Shown here: positions 20,416 to 25,198 of the stretch, piece by piece | Numbering within the stretch: the first letter of the stretch is position 1 | Layout of the letters: each line of letters starts with the position of its first letter | Source: a virus | Virus record (IMG/VR): IMGVR_UViG_3300008952_000259 | Span: 1 to 26,550 of that record | Reading direction: 5' to 3' (one strand) | DNA length: 26,550 nucleotides | Position numbers and translations under genes: made by a program | Notes under the pieces: generated by a model | The model's database searches: none | What the model was told of the DNA's origin: nothing | The model's input: the letters and a program-made list of their open reading frames with translations, nothing else

Positions 20416-22620
20416 TTATATTAAACTTGTACCAAGTTCAGCTTTTTTGGGTATCTTACCAGCAAAATCTTCTATATATTTACCATCTTTAGTTACCTTT
20501 CCACCAAAACCAGTCACTAAAAAATTTATCCCTTCTTCAATTTTTTTCAATGTATCCAACTCTTCCTTATTACTCTCACTTCCTCCAATAAAAGCACCCA
20601 ATCCAGCAGCACCTGCTATAGCAGCCACACCACCAATAACAGCCAATGTAGGCATAGCAGCCATACCAGCAATAGCAAGCGTACTCAAAGCTGAAGCTAA
20701 CATCCAAAAACCAGCAGCTAACCCCATTATACCTAATATTATACCCGGTTCAGCTAACAATAAAAGTGAATTTGTTATTGTATTACCAATAAGTGCGAAC
20801 CCACCAGCCAAAGAATCTATTATAGGTGGTAACATCTTCAATATACCTACTATAGTTAAACCAACCAAACCAATAGCAACTAAAACTGGAATTCCAATTG
20901 AACCAATAGTTCCTAAAGCAGTCAAACCAGCAGTAAGAGGACCCAATGAACCAGCAAAAGCAGTCATACCAAGAGCAGCAAGTTTACCAAATATCCAAAC
21001 ACTAGCAATAACAGAAGCTCCAATTGCTAAAGCCGCACCAAACATCTGCCAACCAGAACTAGCATTATCTAAAAGTCCACCAAATGAAGATAACCAAGCA
21101 ATACCACTTAATATCTGAATACCAAATGCTTTAACCTGATTAGTAAGTAATGTTATATTTGATATAGCTTCTTTAGATGCTATTTCACTAATATCAAGTT
21201 CTCTCATTCTTGCAAGTTCTTTTGTTGTTTTACCTGCTTCTGATACCATCTTTGACATTTCAGCAGTACCAACCCCAATAGCATCAGCCATAGCTTTTCG
21301 TTGTAAAGCGTTCATAGAGTTCCATTCAGCTTCAGAACCAACTTGTTCTAAAATTTCACTCTGTAATCCAGCCAAATCTCCAACAAGGGCTAATTCTCTG
21401 GCTTTCTGTAAATTTAACTTTCTACCAATCATTATTGATGCATTCATTTCAGCTTCCAATGAAGAACCAAAATCCAATAAACCATCGGCGATTTTAGCTA
21501 CATCACCCAAAGTCATTCCCATTTGTTTTGCTTTTACTGCAGCTTTTGCAATATTTTCACCAGAACCTTTTGTATATGTAGCCACTTCTTCTGAAGAACT
21601 TGCTATATCTTCCATTACACCTGCTGGAGCTACTCCAGCAGACATAGCTAATGCTTTAGTTTGTTTTAAGAAATTTTGTGCTGATTCAGATGAATGTCCA
21701 GCCATAGTCATCAACATACCAGTTAATTGAGATGATTGTTGAGTACTTATACCTAAAGCTTTAGCAGTATCCATTGTCGCTTTACTCATTTCAATAGCAT
21801 CACCAACACCCACACCAAAATTATTTGCTAATTCATTTGTGGAACTAGCTACATCTTCAAAACCATATCCCAATCTGACAGCACTAGCTTCAGCTCCCAA
21901 TAAATCACTTTTAAATTCAGTAACACCCATAGCACCAAAAGATTCACCTATTCTATCAGTAGCATCAGCAATACCTTTTATTAAAGCCCCAGCTACAAAA
22001 ATAGCCAACCCAGCACCAAGTGCCACTTTCCAATTATCAGCTATAAATTTACCTACACTTGAAGCCATAGGTGCTATTTTTTCAGCAAACATCTTTCCAA
22101 TGGTTGAAATACCATCATCAATACCAATAGCTTTTGTAAATGAATTTGATGGTATAAAATCAAGCGCACCATTAATACCACTTTCAACCGAATCTTCTAT
22201 ATTTTTTCTAGCAGCATCTAATTGAAGATTACCCAAAGTACCCTGTATTGAAGATCCTAAATCTTCTGCTACTTTTGGTGCTTTTTTCTTCATCTCCTGT
22301 TCAAATTTATCAGATATAGCTTTAAATTCGTCTTGACTTAACATTCCACTTTGAACTCCTTGAAGAGCATTTGTATATTCTTTAGTTAAATCACCCAATC
22401 CAGCTTTTTGTAACTTTCTTTGGTTTCGTTGAATTAATTCATTGGCCGCTTGAGCTTGATCTAAAAATTGTTTTCTAAAATCACTAGCACCCGTAAGATT
22501 AGCTTTTTTAATTTGTTTTGTTAATTCTTTACCAAAATCTACAGCAGCTTCGTCATAAGCCTTTTTTAAAGCTTTAGCTTCTTTTCTTCTCATATCCGTT
22601 GTTTTATCTTTTGGTGCCAT
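20416..22620 (-). CDS. Tail tape measure protein
   Basis: A 734-residue protein with tape-measure features: a charged helical N-terminus (1-190) rich in Lys, Ala and Gln, a hydrophobic segment VALGAGLAIFVAGALIKGIAD (about 198-218), a long helical middle with Ala/Met/Ser repeats (LAMSAGVAPAGVMEDIASSSEEV), and a run of hydrophobic stretches from about 510 to 700 (GIPVLVAIGLVGLTIVGIL and others) ending in a charged tail. It fills the tail tube and sets its length; at about 1.5 angstrom per residue this would give a tail near 110 nm. It lies after the tube and gp26-type genes and before the baseplate genes, in the usual order. T4 gp29 has the same role, but similarity to it cannot be judged by eye. 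Confidence 0.85.
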   Translation of the reverse strand: MAPKDKTTDMRRKEAKALKKAYDEAAVDFGKELTKQIKKANLTGASDFRKQFLDQAQAANELIQRNQRKLQKAGLGDLTKEYTNALQGVQSGMLSQDEFKAISDKFEQEMKKKAPKVAEDLGSSIQGTLGNLQLDAARKNIEDSVESGINGALDFIPSNSFTKAIGIDDGISTIGKMFAEKIAPMASSVGKFIADNWKVALGAGLAIFVAGALIKGIADATDRIGESFGAMGVTEFKSDLLGAEASAVRLGYGFEDVASSTNELANNFGVGVGDAIEMSKATMDTAKALGISTQQSSQLTGMLMTMAGHSSESAQNFLKQTKALAMSAGVAPAGVMEDIASSSEEVATYTKGSGENIAKAAVKAKQMGMTLGDVAKIADGLLDFGSSLEAEMNASIMIGRKLNLQKARELALVGDLAGLQSEILEQVGSEAEWNSMNALQRKAMADAIGVGTAEMSKMVSEAGKTTKELARMRELDISEIASKEAISNITLLTNQVKAFGIQILSGIAWLSSFGGLLDNASSGWQMFGAALAIGASVIASVWIFGKLAALGMTAFAGSLGPLTAGLTALGTIGSIGIPVLVAIGLVGLTIVGILKMLPPIIDSLAGGFALIGNTITNSLLLLAEPGIILGIMGLAAGFWMLASALSTLAIAGMAAMPTLAVIGGVAAIAGAAGLGAFIGGSESNKEELDTLKKIEEGINFLVTGFGGKVTKDGKYIEDFAGKIPKKAELGTSLI

Positions 22621-22629
22621 TAACTATCT

Positions 22630-22857
22630 CTATTTAATTTTATGAATTTCTTTATCTATACCATACTTTTTCAAAACTTTTTCAGTTTCTAAGGCAAGAT
22701 CATTTAAATGTTTAATTTTCTTTTTGACTTCTGGTTGATTTTTAAAAGCTTTTTCAAGCTTTTTAACTTTATGTTTTTTTATGAAATCAAATATTTTATC
22801 AAGAACGCCCTCTTTGATAATATTTGATGTATTCATATATGACTTCTTTTTTGACAT
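22630..22857 (-). CDS. Small lysine-rich protein (75 aa)
   Basis: Start chosen at ATG 22857, with GGAGAAAACC directly before it; an ATG twelve bases upstream (22869) would lie on the ribosome site. The protein begins MSKKKSYMNTSNIIKEGVLD and continues with a helical, Lys-rich, probably coiled-coil region (KKHKVKKLEKAFKNQPEVKKKIKHLNDLALETEKVLKK in two parts). NIIKEG..DKIF..I near the N-terminus resembles short proteins encoded near the tape measure in marine T4-like phages. It is first in the segment behind the third copy of the promoter-like motif. The function is unknown; a chaperone or internal tail component is possible. Confidence 0.65.
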   Translation of the reverse strand: MSKKKSYMNTSNIIKEGVLDKIFDFIKKHKVKKLEKAFKNQPEVKKKIKHLNDLALETEKVLKKYGIDKEIHKIK

Positions 22858-22882
22858 GGTTTTCTCCATTTAGATGTACCAA

Positions 22883-22921: not shown

Positions 22922-23149
22922 TTATCTTTGTGGAATATTTGGTCTGCTTATACCAGAAGATGGTTTCTTCTTAGCTTTTTCCATTTCTTTCTTTTCTAAT
23001 TCTTTAACTTTAACTAATTGTTGAGAATAGAAATTTCTTAAATAAGTGGGCATACTGTATATATCATTGTGAGTAAACCCACCTTGTGAATAATACAATA
23101 ATTGAAATATATTTTCGTGAAGTGTAGACCTATGCTCCGGCCTTAGGCC
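22922..23149 (-). CDS. Out-of-frame extension of the gp26-type gene, probably made by ribosomal frameshift
   Basis: A 75-codon ORF in the +1 frame relative to the gp26-type gene, ending TAA at 22922-22924. Its reading frame is open only after a TGA at about 23163-23165 and has no ATG, GTG or TTG before the core LHENIFQLLYYSQGGFTHND; the first possible initiation codon (TTG) lies inside that core. The protein continues IYSMPTYLRNFYSQQLVKVK and a Lys/Glu-rich tail. The F..LYYS.GGFT..D.Y.MP.YLR.FY pattern is the sort of conserved small domain that follows gp26 in T4-like phages. The simplest reading is a fusion to the gp26-type protein through a +1 (or -2) slip at the seven-T run. It could otherwise be a homopolymer sequencing error that splits one gene. 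Confidence 0.65.
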   Translation of the reverse strand, partial: GLRPEHRSTLHENIFQLLYYSQGGFTHNDIYSMPTYLRNFYSQQLVKVKELEKKEMEKAKKKPSSGISRPNIPQR

Positions 23150-23891
23150 AAAAAAATTCGACGGTCATTGGAATGTCCAATGATACCGTCTCACCCTCCA
23201 AATCTATTTCCTGTGATAAGTCAATATCAGGATTAATTCTTGCTATTTCATCTCTTAAAAATAGAGATTCTTTTGATAACATATTATCTACAAAATTATT
23301 GACAATAGATTTAGTATCATCACCATTAATAGAAGTAATTACTTTTTTTAATCTAGTTGTAACTTCGGCTTGTTGTCCTATTTTCTGTAAGGATTTAAGT
23401 TCATCTGCTATTGCAGCTTCATCTCTACCAGTTAAAAGTTTAAATGTTATCTTTACCTTTGTAATTGGTAATTCCAATTCAAAATTATTTTCCGAATAAT
23501 CTACATCTTCTGGCAATTCTTTAAACTCACAAGAAGTTAAATCAAATGTATATGGAAATGCTTCTCCTGTTTTAGGATTTGTAACTTCAACATTATATTC
23601 ACCACCATATGCGAGAATACGAGCAGCTATCATAACTGCATTTTTATCACCAACTACTAAATCTTCCGATGTTATTCCTTCAGTAACAATAAGAGAATTA
23701 AGAAGTTTATCAACTACAACACCTTTTTTAATAAGATTCTGTGATGTAAGGATATCTTCCTCTTTAGCTGTCATATATTTTAGTTCAATTTTACCACTTT
23801 TCAATGGTGAATCTTTTGAATAAAGTTTTCCTTCACTTGGTAATTCTATTGTTTCCGTTGGAAATTTAAATTCTTGTTTTTTTTCTGCCAT
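23130..23891 (-). CDS. 26: Baseplate/tail-assembly protein, T4 gp26-like
   Basis: A 253-residue protein of the T4_baseplate (gp26) family, needed for baseplate hub assembly in T4. Seen: ETIELPSEGKLYSKDSPLKSGKIELKYMTAKEEDILTSQNLIKKGVVVDKLLNSLIV (16-70 in parts), the family signature, then VGDKNAVMIAARILAYGGEY (80-99), LLTGRDEAAI, and a C-terminus IPMTVEFFWPKAGA. The start at 23891 has AGGAG a few bases upstream. The gene sits between the histone-like gene and the tape measure, the position held by tail assembly chaperones in other tailed phages. The TTT-TTT-T run encoding Phe-Phe-Trp near its end overlaps the beginning of the downstream out-of-frame ORF. Confidence 0.85.
   Translation of the reverse strand: MAEKKQEFKFPTETIELPSEGKLYSKDSPLKSGKIELKYMTAKEEDILTSQNLIKKGVVVDKLLNSLIVTEGITSEDLVVGDKNAVMIAARILAYGGEYNVEVTNPKTGEAFPYTFDLTSCEFKELPEDVDYSENNFELELPITKVKITFKLLTGRDEAAIADELKSLQKIGQQAEVTTRLKKVITSINGDDTKSIVNNFVDNMLSKESLFLRDEIARINPDIDLSQEIDLEGETVSLDIPMTVEFFWPKAGA
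23150..23156 (-). promoter_or_regulatory. Candidate ribosomal frameshift (slippery) site, seven T
   Basis: In the minus-strand mRNA the gp26 frame reads GAA TTT TTT TGG CCT. A tRNA-Phe that slips one base forward on TTT-T still reads TTT, and the next codon becomes GGC in the frame of the downstream ORF. The run lies ten codons before the gp26 stop and inside the window where the two frames overlap. Confidence 0.5.
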
Positions 23892-23903: not shown

Positions 23904-24086
23904 CTATTTTGATTCATTTACAGATGCTTTCCTATAATCAGTAACAAGTTTCTTTACTTCACCAACTGCTTTGCGTGCTCTACCACCAGCGGCTTTGTTA
24001 CCTTTTTCTGTAAATGCTCTATGATTTTCTTGAAAATCTTCCCATAAATTGTTTAATGTTTCATATAATTCGTTTGTTGTTGCCAT
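23904..24086 (-). CDS. Small histone H1/Hc1-like DNA-binding protein
   Basis: A 60-residue protein with GNKAAGGRARKAVGEVKKLVTDYRKASV (27-54 in parts), close to the pattern of the bacterial histone-H1-like Hc1 family (GNKAA..R.R......KL...YRK.S.), here without the long lysine-rich C-terminal tail. The Lys/Arg spacing suggests a helix that binds nucleic acid. In a phage it could coat DNA or affect the host nucleoid, but it sits between the endolysin and the gp26-type gene, so a tail-assembly role is also possible. A strong ribosome site (GGGAGGTAATGTAAC) precedes ATG 24086. The family call is from motif memory. Confidence 0.6.
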   Translation of the reverse strand: MATTNELYETLNNLWEDFQENHRAFTEKGNKAAGGRARKAVGEVKKLVTDYRKASVNESK

Positions 24087-24100
24087 GTTACATTACCTCC

Positions 24101-24595
24101 CTATACTTCGGTTGCCCGTCTATACCAACCAAACCAAAATCGTTCTTGTTCTGGTTTCTTGATAACTAAGTTAGCGAATCTTAATACTCGATAAGCTCGT
24201 ACTCTCTCAAGTTCAAGATTCTGAATTGCTTTTAGTGTAGCTGGTCCTATACCACCATCTACATCAATTTTTTCTTTGTTTTTAGCATTTGCTGCTCTCT
24301 GTAAAACCTTAACTGCTCCACCCTGTCCAAAGTTCACACACATATCAAAATAGATATGTCGTAGTCGAGGGGGAACTTCATCACATTTAGCCCTTCTCCA
24401 ATAATCTTGATGATATATTGTTTTAGCTTGTTCTTTAGTTAAGTTCTTTATATCCACATCTGGATAAAACCGTTTAGTTATACCAAAATTTGTTTCACCA
24501 CCCAAATCATTTGGGTCATTTACATATCCACCTTCGTGTTTTAGTACTACTTCTATAATCTCATTAAATGTAGTTAATTGAGTTTTTTCTGACAT
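24101..24595 (-). CDS. Endolysin, GH108-type muramidase
   Basis: A 164-residue peptidoglycan hydrolase of the GH108 (N-acetylmuramidase, ZliS-like) family. Start chosen at ATG 24595 with AGAGG nine bases upstream; a longer reading from 24667 would cross the promoter-like motif. Seen: VLKHEGGYVNDPNDLGGETNFGIT (near 14-38) with the catalytic Glu of HEGGY, DYWRRAKCDEVP, IYFDMCVNFGQGGAVKVLQ and DGGIGPATLKAI of the C-terminal peptidoglycan-binding part, ending RFWFGWYRRATEV. No signal peptide or membrane segment, so release would need a holin not seen here. It is located among tail genes, so a virion-associated lysin (baseplate) is also possible. Confidence 0.88.
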   Translation of the reverse strand: MSEKTQLTTFNEIIEVVLKHEGGYVNDPNDLGGETNFGITKRFYPDVDIKNLTKEQAKTIYHQDYWRRAKCDEVPPRLRHIYFDMCVNFGQGGAVKVLQRAANAKNKEKIDVDGGIGPATLKAIQNLELERVRAYRVLRFANLVIKKPEQERFWFGWYRRATEV

Positions 24596-24629
24596 CTTTA
24601 ATAACCTCTTTATTATTTTACATAACATT

Positions 24630-24644
24630 TTCATATATAAATAT
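24630..24644 (-). promoter_or_regulatory. Promoter-like motif, copy B
   Basis: ATATTTATATATGAA on the minus strand, identical to the other two copies. It begins seven bases after the U-tract of the terminator that follows the tube gene and ends 34 bases before the endolysin start. Confidence 0.55.
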
Positions 24645-24650
24645 ATACAT

Positions 24651-24681
24651 AAAGAAAAAATCCCCAATTTTTATTGAGGAT
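24651..24681 (-). terminator. Rho-independent terminator after the tube gene
   Basis: A 9-bp stem with one G-U pair, 24660-24668 (atccccaat) against 24673-24681 (attgaggat), with a four-base loop. On the minus strand it is followed by TTTTTTCTTT. It lies 28 bases after the tube stop codon. Confidence 0.8.
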
Positions 24682-24709: not shown

Positions 24710-25198
24710 TTAGAATTCAAGTATTGCGTAATCATATCTTAAAGTAACTGATATTTCAGCGGGATCACTTGAAGCAAAATCTAAATCATTAAAATTGGCT
24801 GCTTGTATCCAAGATCCTTTTAATGTCCATTGTTCTACAACATCACCTACAGGACCTAAAACTTTAATTAATACATCTTTCTTATAGAAATCTGAATAAC
24901 CATCTCTACCCGTTACTGATTCATGTGAAAGTCTTACCCATTCCATTACTGCTTGTGCGGCTGAAGGAACAACTGGATCATACATTGTAAATTCAACTGT
25001 TTCCCAAGAAGCCTTACCTTTAACATATCTTTTTACATTCATATGATTCAATTCAACTTCTTCAAATGAAATACTTGGTCTATTAGCTGTTTTGATTAGA
25101 TAGGCAGGAATCCCATCAATTGCCATTACATAACGATTTTTTAATTTGGGTTCAAACGGTGTAAACATCGCTTGATTAGCATCAATCAAAGTTGCCAT
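24710..25198 (-). CDS. 19: Tail tube protein, T4 gp19-like
   Basis: A 162-residue tube monomer that would stack as rings inside the sheath. Seen: MATLIDANQAMFTPFEPKLKNRYVM near the start, YLIKTANRPSISFEEVELNHMNVKRYVKGKASWETVEFTMYDP (33-75 in parts), and LKGSWIQAANFNDLDFASSDPAEISVTLRYDYAILEF at the C-terminus, all as in the gp19 family of T4-like phages (T4 gp19 is 163 residues). The ATG at 25198 has GGAG seven bases upstream. It has its own promoter-like motif upstream and terminators on both sides, which would allow the high expression expected for a major tail protein. Confidence 0.95.
   Translation of the reverse strand: MATLIDANQAMFTPFEPKLKNRYVMAIDGIPAYLIKTANRPSISFEEVELNHMNVKRYVKGKASWETVEFTMYDPVVPSAAQAVMEWVRLSHESVTGRDGYSDFYKKDVLIKVLGPVGDVVEQWTLKGSWIQAANFNDLDFASSDPAEISVTLRYDYAILEF

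Follow-up and report, generated by a model that had tools for sequence, protein, structure and literature searches.

Our analyses of the window (viz. the whole 26,550-nucleotide stretch of viral DNA under study) have identified two overlapping open reading frames (ORFs; 22922-23891) located between the genes for the tail tube and the tape measure protein. All of the features described here lie on the minus strand. The first ORF is a gp26-type gene (23130..23891), encoding a 253 aa member of PF12322/phrog_150 that ends in FFWPKAGA and is proposed to be the short form of a tail assembly chaperone (TAC). The second is an extension in the +1 frame (GLRPEHRSTLHENIFQLLYYSQGGFTHNDIYSMPTYLRNFY...; 75 codons and a stop, 22922..23149), which would form the C-terminal part of a 322 aa long form. 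The gp19-type tail tube gene (24710..25198; phrog_4542, 1e-33) encodes a protein that is 44% identical to its counterpart in Flavobacterium phage immuto. ORFs for a GH108 lysozyme with a peptidoglycan-binding domain (24101-24667) and for a 60 aa histone H1-like Hc1 protein (23904-24086; PF07432, 2e-18) intervene between the tube gene and the chaperone pair; the Hc1-like gene thus sits within the tail module, between the lysozyme and chaperone genes. On the other side of the pair, a 79 aa ORF (22630..22869), for which family searches gave no convincing match, separates the extension from the gene for a probable tape measure protein of 734 aa (20416..22620), which matches the annotated tape measure protein of phage immuto (BLASTP, 6e-17). 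The resulting gene order, tube - short form - extension - tape measure, agrees with the original prediction, which had placed the pair just before the tape measure gene, and a large ORF is present at the tape measure place in 46 of 46 relatives with enough DNA. No tRNA or Rfam element was found in the window.

The gp26-type ORF ends with the codons GTC GAA TTT TTT TGG CCT AAG GCC GGA GCA TAG, its stop (23130..23132) giving an overlap of 17 nt with the extension. The +1 frame is shut upstream by a TGA (23165..23167) and is then open to a TAA (22924-22922), with 75 codons past the second Phe. ATG, GTG and TTG are absent from the window between this TGA and the core LHENIFQLLYYSQGGFT; the earliest of these codons in the extension is a TTG at residue 17, within the conserved core. 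The startless +1 ORF that had been described in the original prediction is therefore present, together with its upstream TGA. A run of seven T (23156-23150) forms part of the sequence TTT_TTT_TGG_CCT (23145..23156), which is the proposed +1 slip site, with UUU in the P site and UGG in the A site. The sequence TTYTTTTGGCCT occurs a single time in the 26.5-kb window, against an expectation of 0.01, and an in-frame F-F/L-W slip of the same type is absent from all other ORFs of the window.

Relatives of this locus were identified by a tblastn search of 50,697 phage records with the extension and by scans of viral contigs. The tblastn search matched Microcystis phage Mel-JY01 (6e-7) and four records of Flavobacterium phage immuto, in all of which the match begins at the first residue after the slip and the region is annotated as a truncated or separate hypothetical ORF. 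In immuto (L001, 1504-1746) the annotated extension starts internally (1636-1746), so that its first 44 residues are missing; the immuto junction reads TTT CTT TGG CCT, with GLTPEYRAG... as the extension. The contig scans yielded 71 relatives with the gp26-type query, 37 with the extension and more than 600 with the gp26 of Mel-JY01, of which 80 were kept; 65 of this last set were analysed and all have the same frame relation. Wherever the DNA of a close relative could be read, the extension begins at the same motif and is in the +1 frame. After reduction to a non-redundant set (<90% nucleotide identity), the same junction and frame relation are found in 113 lineages, and 8 further contigs with TTT TTT TGG CCT were found in bacterial genome bins, mostly from Flavobacteriales. 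Because the junction and frame relation recur in all of these lineages and bin contigs, they are not due to chance. Across 57 codons, the +1 frame is open in 56 of the 56 non-redundant lineages tested and the zero frame in none (0/56). An extension-like +1 frame is also seen in the distant members Listeria LIS04 (TTT TTT AGT ACC) and Streptococcus GXN1 (TTC TTT CGT CCC), and other distant members (L077 and L003) carry variant motifs.

The codons at the junction are strongly constrained. In the zero frame the 113 lineages read TTY/CTT-TTT-TGG-CCT, or TTY/CTT-YTT-TGG-CCT when codon 2 variants are included: codon 1 is TTT in 106, TTC in 4 and CTT in 3; codon 2 is TTT in 108, CTT in 4, CTA in 1 and never TTC; codon 3 is TGG in 111 and TAC in 2; and codon 4 is CCT in all 113. 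The codon that follows varies freely, and the codon before the slip also varies (GAG, GAC, GGG, AGC, TCC). Controls on the same tree were provided by further columns of these sequences at which Phe or Pro is conserved. TTC is found in 0/108 at codon 2 vs. 25/103 (24%) at another conserved Phe column, and CCT in 113/113 at codon 4 vs. 23-38% at seven other conserved Pro columns. The avoidance of TTC relative to the control column indicates that the ability to re-pair in the +1 frame is required of codon 2, and a P-site codon with this ability (CUU/UUU before U) is present in 112 of the 113 lineages. The T of CCT may be held either by the Leu codon of the +1 frame (CTN) or by the site itself. 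Four contigs (L027-L030), which represent one non-redundant lineage, have TTT CTA TGG; re-pairing at codon 2 would be poor in them, and the shift may occur at the first TTT.

The frame relation is retained in relatives with TTC TTT TGG, TTT CTT TGG or TTT CTA TGG. Since these variants break the T-run, a sequencing error within the run is excluded as a general explanation. The original prediction had placed the slip on the seven-T run, and while the TTT TTT TGG junction that it named has been upheld, the signal is YTT_TGG_CCT rather than the run. The same variants bear upon transcriptional slippage, by which RNA polymerase would drop one U or add two and the ribosome would remain unshifted. Such slippage would be in keeping with the seven T found in the window and in most relatives. 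However, no more than three or four T stand in a row in the relatives that carry TTTCTTTGG, TTCTTTTGG or TTTCTATGG, whose extension is still in the +1 frame, and the invariant TGGCCT downstream would be unexpected for a polymerase-based event. Because the T-run is dispensable (as in TTTCTTTGG and TTCTTTTGG), polymerase slippage is disfavoured and we consider it extremely improbable.

The region past the junction is under purifying selection in the +1 frame. In Nei-Gojobori comparisons of pairs of non-redundant lineages, dN/dS for this region is 0.10 in the +1 frame, a rough ratio because dS is saturated in that frame, vs. 2.1 in frame 0 and 1.15 in frame +2. In an alignment of 61 members the +1 sequence invariably begins with Gly-Leu, whereas the last residues of the short form vary among relatives in both sequence and length.

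A constrained extension could also be a separate small protein, made by re-initiation or from a non-standard start adjacent to the gp26-type stop codon. The annotated start of cyanophage gp51 is an ATG just past the gp26 stop, some upstream ATG is present in the +1 frame in 40 of the 113 lineages, and in phage LR756511 the extension is a following ORF with its own ATG, all of which would suit such a protein. However, 47 of the 113 lineages, including the window, lack ATG, GTG and TTG all the way from the +1-frame stop to the core, and in only 6 does one of these codons lie between the slip and the core. Conservation of the +1 frame sets in at the junction, ahead of the zero-frame stop; a separate start would require neither the avoidance of TTC at codon 2 nor the invariant CCT; and the same two parts form a single protein in T4. 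A separately started protein is thus quite improbable. The relatives show neither a conserved start codon for the second ORF, nor the error in T-run length, nor the unconserved downstream protein that the original prediction had listed as findings contrary to it.

The frame relation, the site and the selection that acts on the extension support the proposal, made in the original prediction, of a +1 shift that yields a short and a long TAC. To judge from these comparisons of sequences, a +1 programmed frameshift by which one gene would encode both chaperones is the best explanation of the locus, and we regard it as highly probable. The marine T4-related phage represented by the window and hundreds of its uncultured relatives very probably make two versions of the chaperone from one gene, with some ribosomes skipping one base at the nearly constant UUU UGG CCU. 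We infer that this change of frame is ribosomal and that codon 2 is its place. Most ribosomes would read GAA UUU UUU UGG CCU AAG and continue to the UAG, producing the 253 aa short form of the T4 gp26 type. A minority, according to the efficiency that we envisage, would pause when the second UUU is occupied by peptidyl-tRNA-Phe (or, in the CUU relatives, CUU by tRNA-Leu) and the A site holds UGG. The P-site tRNA would then re-pair one base downstream (UUU to UUU), making GGC the next A-site codon, and translation in the +1 frame would lead to the 322 aa long form of the T4 gp51 type, which would carry the 75 aa extension at its C-terminus (junction VEFF|GLRPEHR). UGG CCU, being invariant, is the obvious candidate for what causes the pause.

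The +1 shift might alternatively take place later than UUU, viz. at the proline codon (CCU to CUN, with tRNA-Pro in the P site) or on tRNA-Trp. Proline codons are known +1 sites in tail proteins of Listeria PSA and SPP1 (PMC5009743, PMC6316719), and these precedents, together with the invariance of CCT (113/113), could be taken in favour of a later shift. However, the free variation of the codon after CCT means that the lineages share no slow A-site codon, the absence of TTC from codon 2 would be left unexplained, and the T of CCT is already accounted for by the +1 Leu codon (CTN) of the extension. We consider a later shift unlikely in comparison with one at UUU.

A known counterpart of a shift at UUU is the RF2 (prfB) site of E. 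coli, CUU_UGA_C, where likewise a P-site YUU re-pairs to UUU and the A-site codon begins with UG. The P-site codons at our junction (UUU and CUU) are those that work at the RF2 site, at which they are among the best +1 codons (Curran, 1993, as cited in PMC10885494). The two sites differ in that RF2 has a stop codon in the A site, whereas the window clade has the sense codon UGG (111 lineages) or UAC (2 lineages). The Shine-Dalgarno-like element located 3 nt upstream in RF2 has no conserved equivalent at the site of the window clade, and the RF2 shift is autoregulatory whereas the latter site involves no autoregulation. No conserved RNA structure was detected downstream (z of -1.35 for the window and no consensus structure in 18 relatives). 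Inverted repeats (GGCCT...AGGCC) near the slip site were considered as a stimulator and rejected, as they are found in some members only and are not conserved. UGG is not very rare, with 14 per 1000 codons in the window. The sense codons of the site, the lack of a very rare codon and the lack of a conserved RNA structure were counted against the +1 model, as were the lineage with TTT CTA TGG and, for the chaperone pair, the weak fold matches to TACs and the weak direct match of the extension to T4 gp51 described below.

Both parts of the proposed long form can be related to T4 proteins. The short form matches PF12322 (T4_baseplate) with an E-value of 5e-11 (43 bits, cut-off 24.5), and this family and phrog_150 are matched by 48 and 58 of 61 relatives, respectively. 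PF12322/phrog_150 includes both gp26 and gp51 of T4, which are two paralogous genes. T4 gp26 spans only positions 10-236 of the 282 positions of phrog_150 and T4 gp51 spans positions 3-281 in one frame, and gp51 is accordingly read from its sequence as a gp26-type domain plus a C-terminal part. In the phages P-SSM2, S-PM2 and HTVC008M, phrog_150 is matched by gp26 (to position 234) and then by a 'gp51' ORF in the -1 frame (about 206/227-282). At this junction, 68 of 68 unique cyanophage contigs have NNT TTT TTC, which contains the -1 heptamer T_TTT_TTC, and pelagiphage HTVC008M has AGT TTT TTT with no ATG, GTG or TTG just before the core. Across the cyanophage and pelagiphage contigs (L145-L224, L225-L235; L142, 1690-1730) the -1 sequence is an invariant TTTTTTC, or mostly TTTTTTT in the pelagiphage. 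The cyanophage gp26 and 'gp51' thus appear to be the same pair, joined by the -1 heptamer TTTTTTC. Cyanophage gp51 has been reported to be only some 20% as long as other gp51 proteins and to lack the first 200 residues (PMC3037559); the -1 junction in cyanophages and pelagiphages would explain this shortness, because the remainder is gp26, joined by the shift.

Profile comparisons (hhalign) connect these proteins in steps. The window-clade long form matches the cyanophage long form (prob 97, E 9e-12) and its extension the cyanophage extension (prob 95, E 5e-8); the cyanophage extension in turn matches the C-terminus of T4 gp51 (prob 97, 2e-11) and the cyanophage long form matches gp51 (prob 99, 6e-18). 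Column-shuffled controls lie far below these cyanophage-linked scores. The direct match of the window-clade extension to T4 gp51 is weak (prob 8), although in the right register, and homology of the extension to gp51 is thus indicated only stepwise, through the cyanophage intermediate. The window pair resembles that of the Kyanoviridae cyanophages and pelagiphages in having the junction after Phe-Phe, a homologous extension and a single locus. It differs in that their extension is in the -1 frame, whereas that of the window clade is in the +1 frame, and the cyanophages have an ATG after the stop. Likewise, the window short form is a PF12322 member as in T4 and the long form combines a gp26-type domain with a gp51-like C-terminal extension, whereas T4 has two genes on opposite strands and no shift. 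The pairing of gp26 with the extension that was put forward in the original prediction is therefore supported and can be refined: the pair appears equivalent to T4 gp26 plus gp51, with the long form corresponding to gp51.

The assignment of this pair as TACs draws on architecture and fold. In lambda gpG/gpGT and other TACs, as proposed for the window, a short form and a frameshift-extended long form are encoded between the tube and tape measure genes, and several features by which G/GT-type pairs are recognized are seen here, viz. two overlapping ORFs in this position, a second ORF without its own start, a conserved frame relation and a slippery sequence at the overlap. The likeness claimed is one of arrangement. 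Lambda and most other TACs use a -1 shift at a slippery heptamer, whereas the window clade has +1 at YUU_UGG_CCU. The short form (61 sequences) and the T4-type gp51 were modelled separately with AlphaFold. For the short-form model (mean pLDDT 92.7), the top two PDB matches by VIA, both weak and involving residues 1-97, are YqbN (3klu; Z 5.3, rmsd 7.4, 91 aligned residues), a chaperone of the XkdN type, and that of HK97 (tail assembly chaperone, 2ob9; Z 5.0, rmsd 5.5, 84 aligned residues; Foldseek prob 0.57, E 0.44). As these Z values are low, the matches to TAC folds provide support that falls short of proof. The gp51 model (pLDDT 85) had no clear counterpart in the PDB, TACs were not among its matches, and a direct search of the PDB sequences gave nothing relevant.

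The change of frame could be real and the pair nonetheless be a component of the baseplate hub or a hub-assembly factor rather than a tube/tape measure chaperone. The family names used in Pfam, PHROGs and the T4 literature (baseplate hub subunit, hub assembly catalyst or chaperone) point in this direction, and in BFVD the short-form model matches T4-like baseplate hub (assembly) proteins. However, the gene order, the two-form architecture and the best fold matches, weak as they are, are those of TACs, and Vladimirov et al. (2022), as cited in PMC10885494 and PMC12846349, name TAC genes of T4-like phages and propose two genes instead of a shift. A role in the hub alone has, in our estimation, little probability. 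If the pair works in the manner of lambda gpG/gpGT, its short form would coat the tape measure protein, the extension of the long form would recruit tail tube subunits, and the frameshift would set the ratio of the two forms.

G-T frameshifting is widely conserved, with T4 as the exception (2016 recoding review, PMC5009743), and +1 cases among frameshifted tail chaperones are rare and mostly unproven. In the HF1 group of haloviruses a +1 TAC shift has been proposed at UUU_CGC (PMC7230728); like the window site, it is a proposed +1 shift at UUU in the TAC gene of a contractile-tailed virus, and it differs in its A-site codon, CGC, and in its archaeal hosts, although a member of the wider family, L004 (TTC TTT CGT), is similar to it. 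For SPP1 a -1 TAC shift has been proposed at UUUUUUC (PMC6316719), which is the heptamer found at the cyanophage gp26-gp51 junction. The T4-like TACs are already published, and the idea that T4 gp26/gp51 are previously unrecognized TACs was dropped in view of Vladimirov et al. (2022), as represented in the papers that cite it. What is new is a +1 site of sense codons only, the RF2-like YUU_UGG_CCU, of which we found no account in the literature, the work of Vladimirov et al. (2022) being covered through its citations. We judge it likely that, in widespread T4-related phages, the +1 signal consists wholly of this short run of sense codons, with no stop codon, conserved RNA structure or Shine-Dalgarno-like stimulator, and that, for the homologous junction, cyanophages use a -1 shift at UUUUUUC whereas T4 has a gene duplication in its place. 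One chaperone pair would then be made in three ways. The hundreds of uncultured T4 relatives point to a +1 site constrained enough for its minimal signal to be tested with a simple reporter, and the annotations of hundreds of phages, which give a 'hypothetical protein' or, as for immuto, a truncated ORF, would have to be corrected.

Some further observations concern individual relatives. In the jumbo phage LR756511 (L006, ~2269), the extension-like ORF after the gp26-type gene is in a different frame, which makes a fourth arrangement. L335, a 2.8 Mb 'chromosome' in a bin of candidate division WOR-3, contains the chaperone gene (TTT TTT TGG CCT) with a large ORF downstream, and is either a provirus or a misplaced phage contig. 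DUF6760 (PF20546) was rejected as the family of the extension and kept as a lead only, the match being weak, below the cut-off and limited to 19 of 61 members. DUF6760 is found in contractile injection system loci. The resemblance is collinear from the first residues of the extension (A3 members, e.g. L093, 3004-3189), and the same domain might serve in contractile injection systems.
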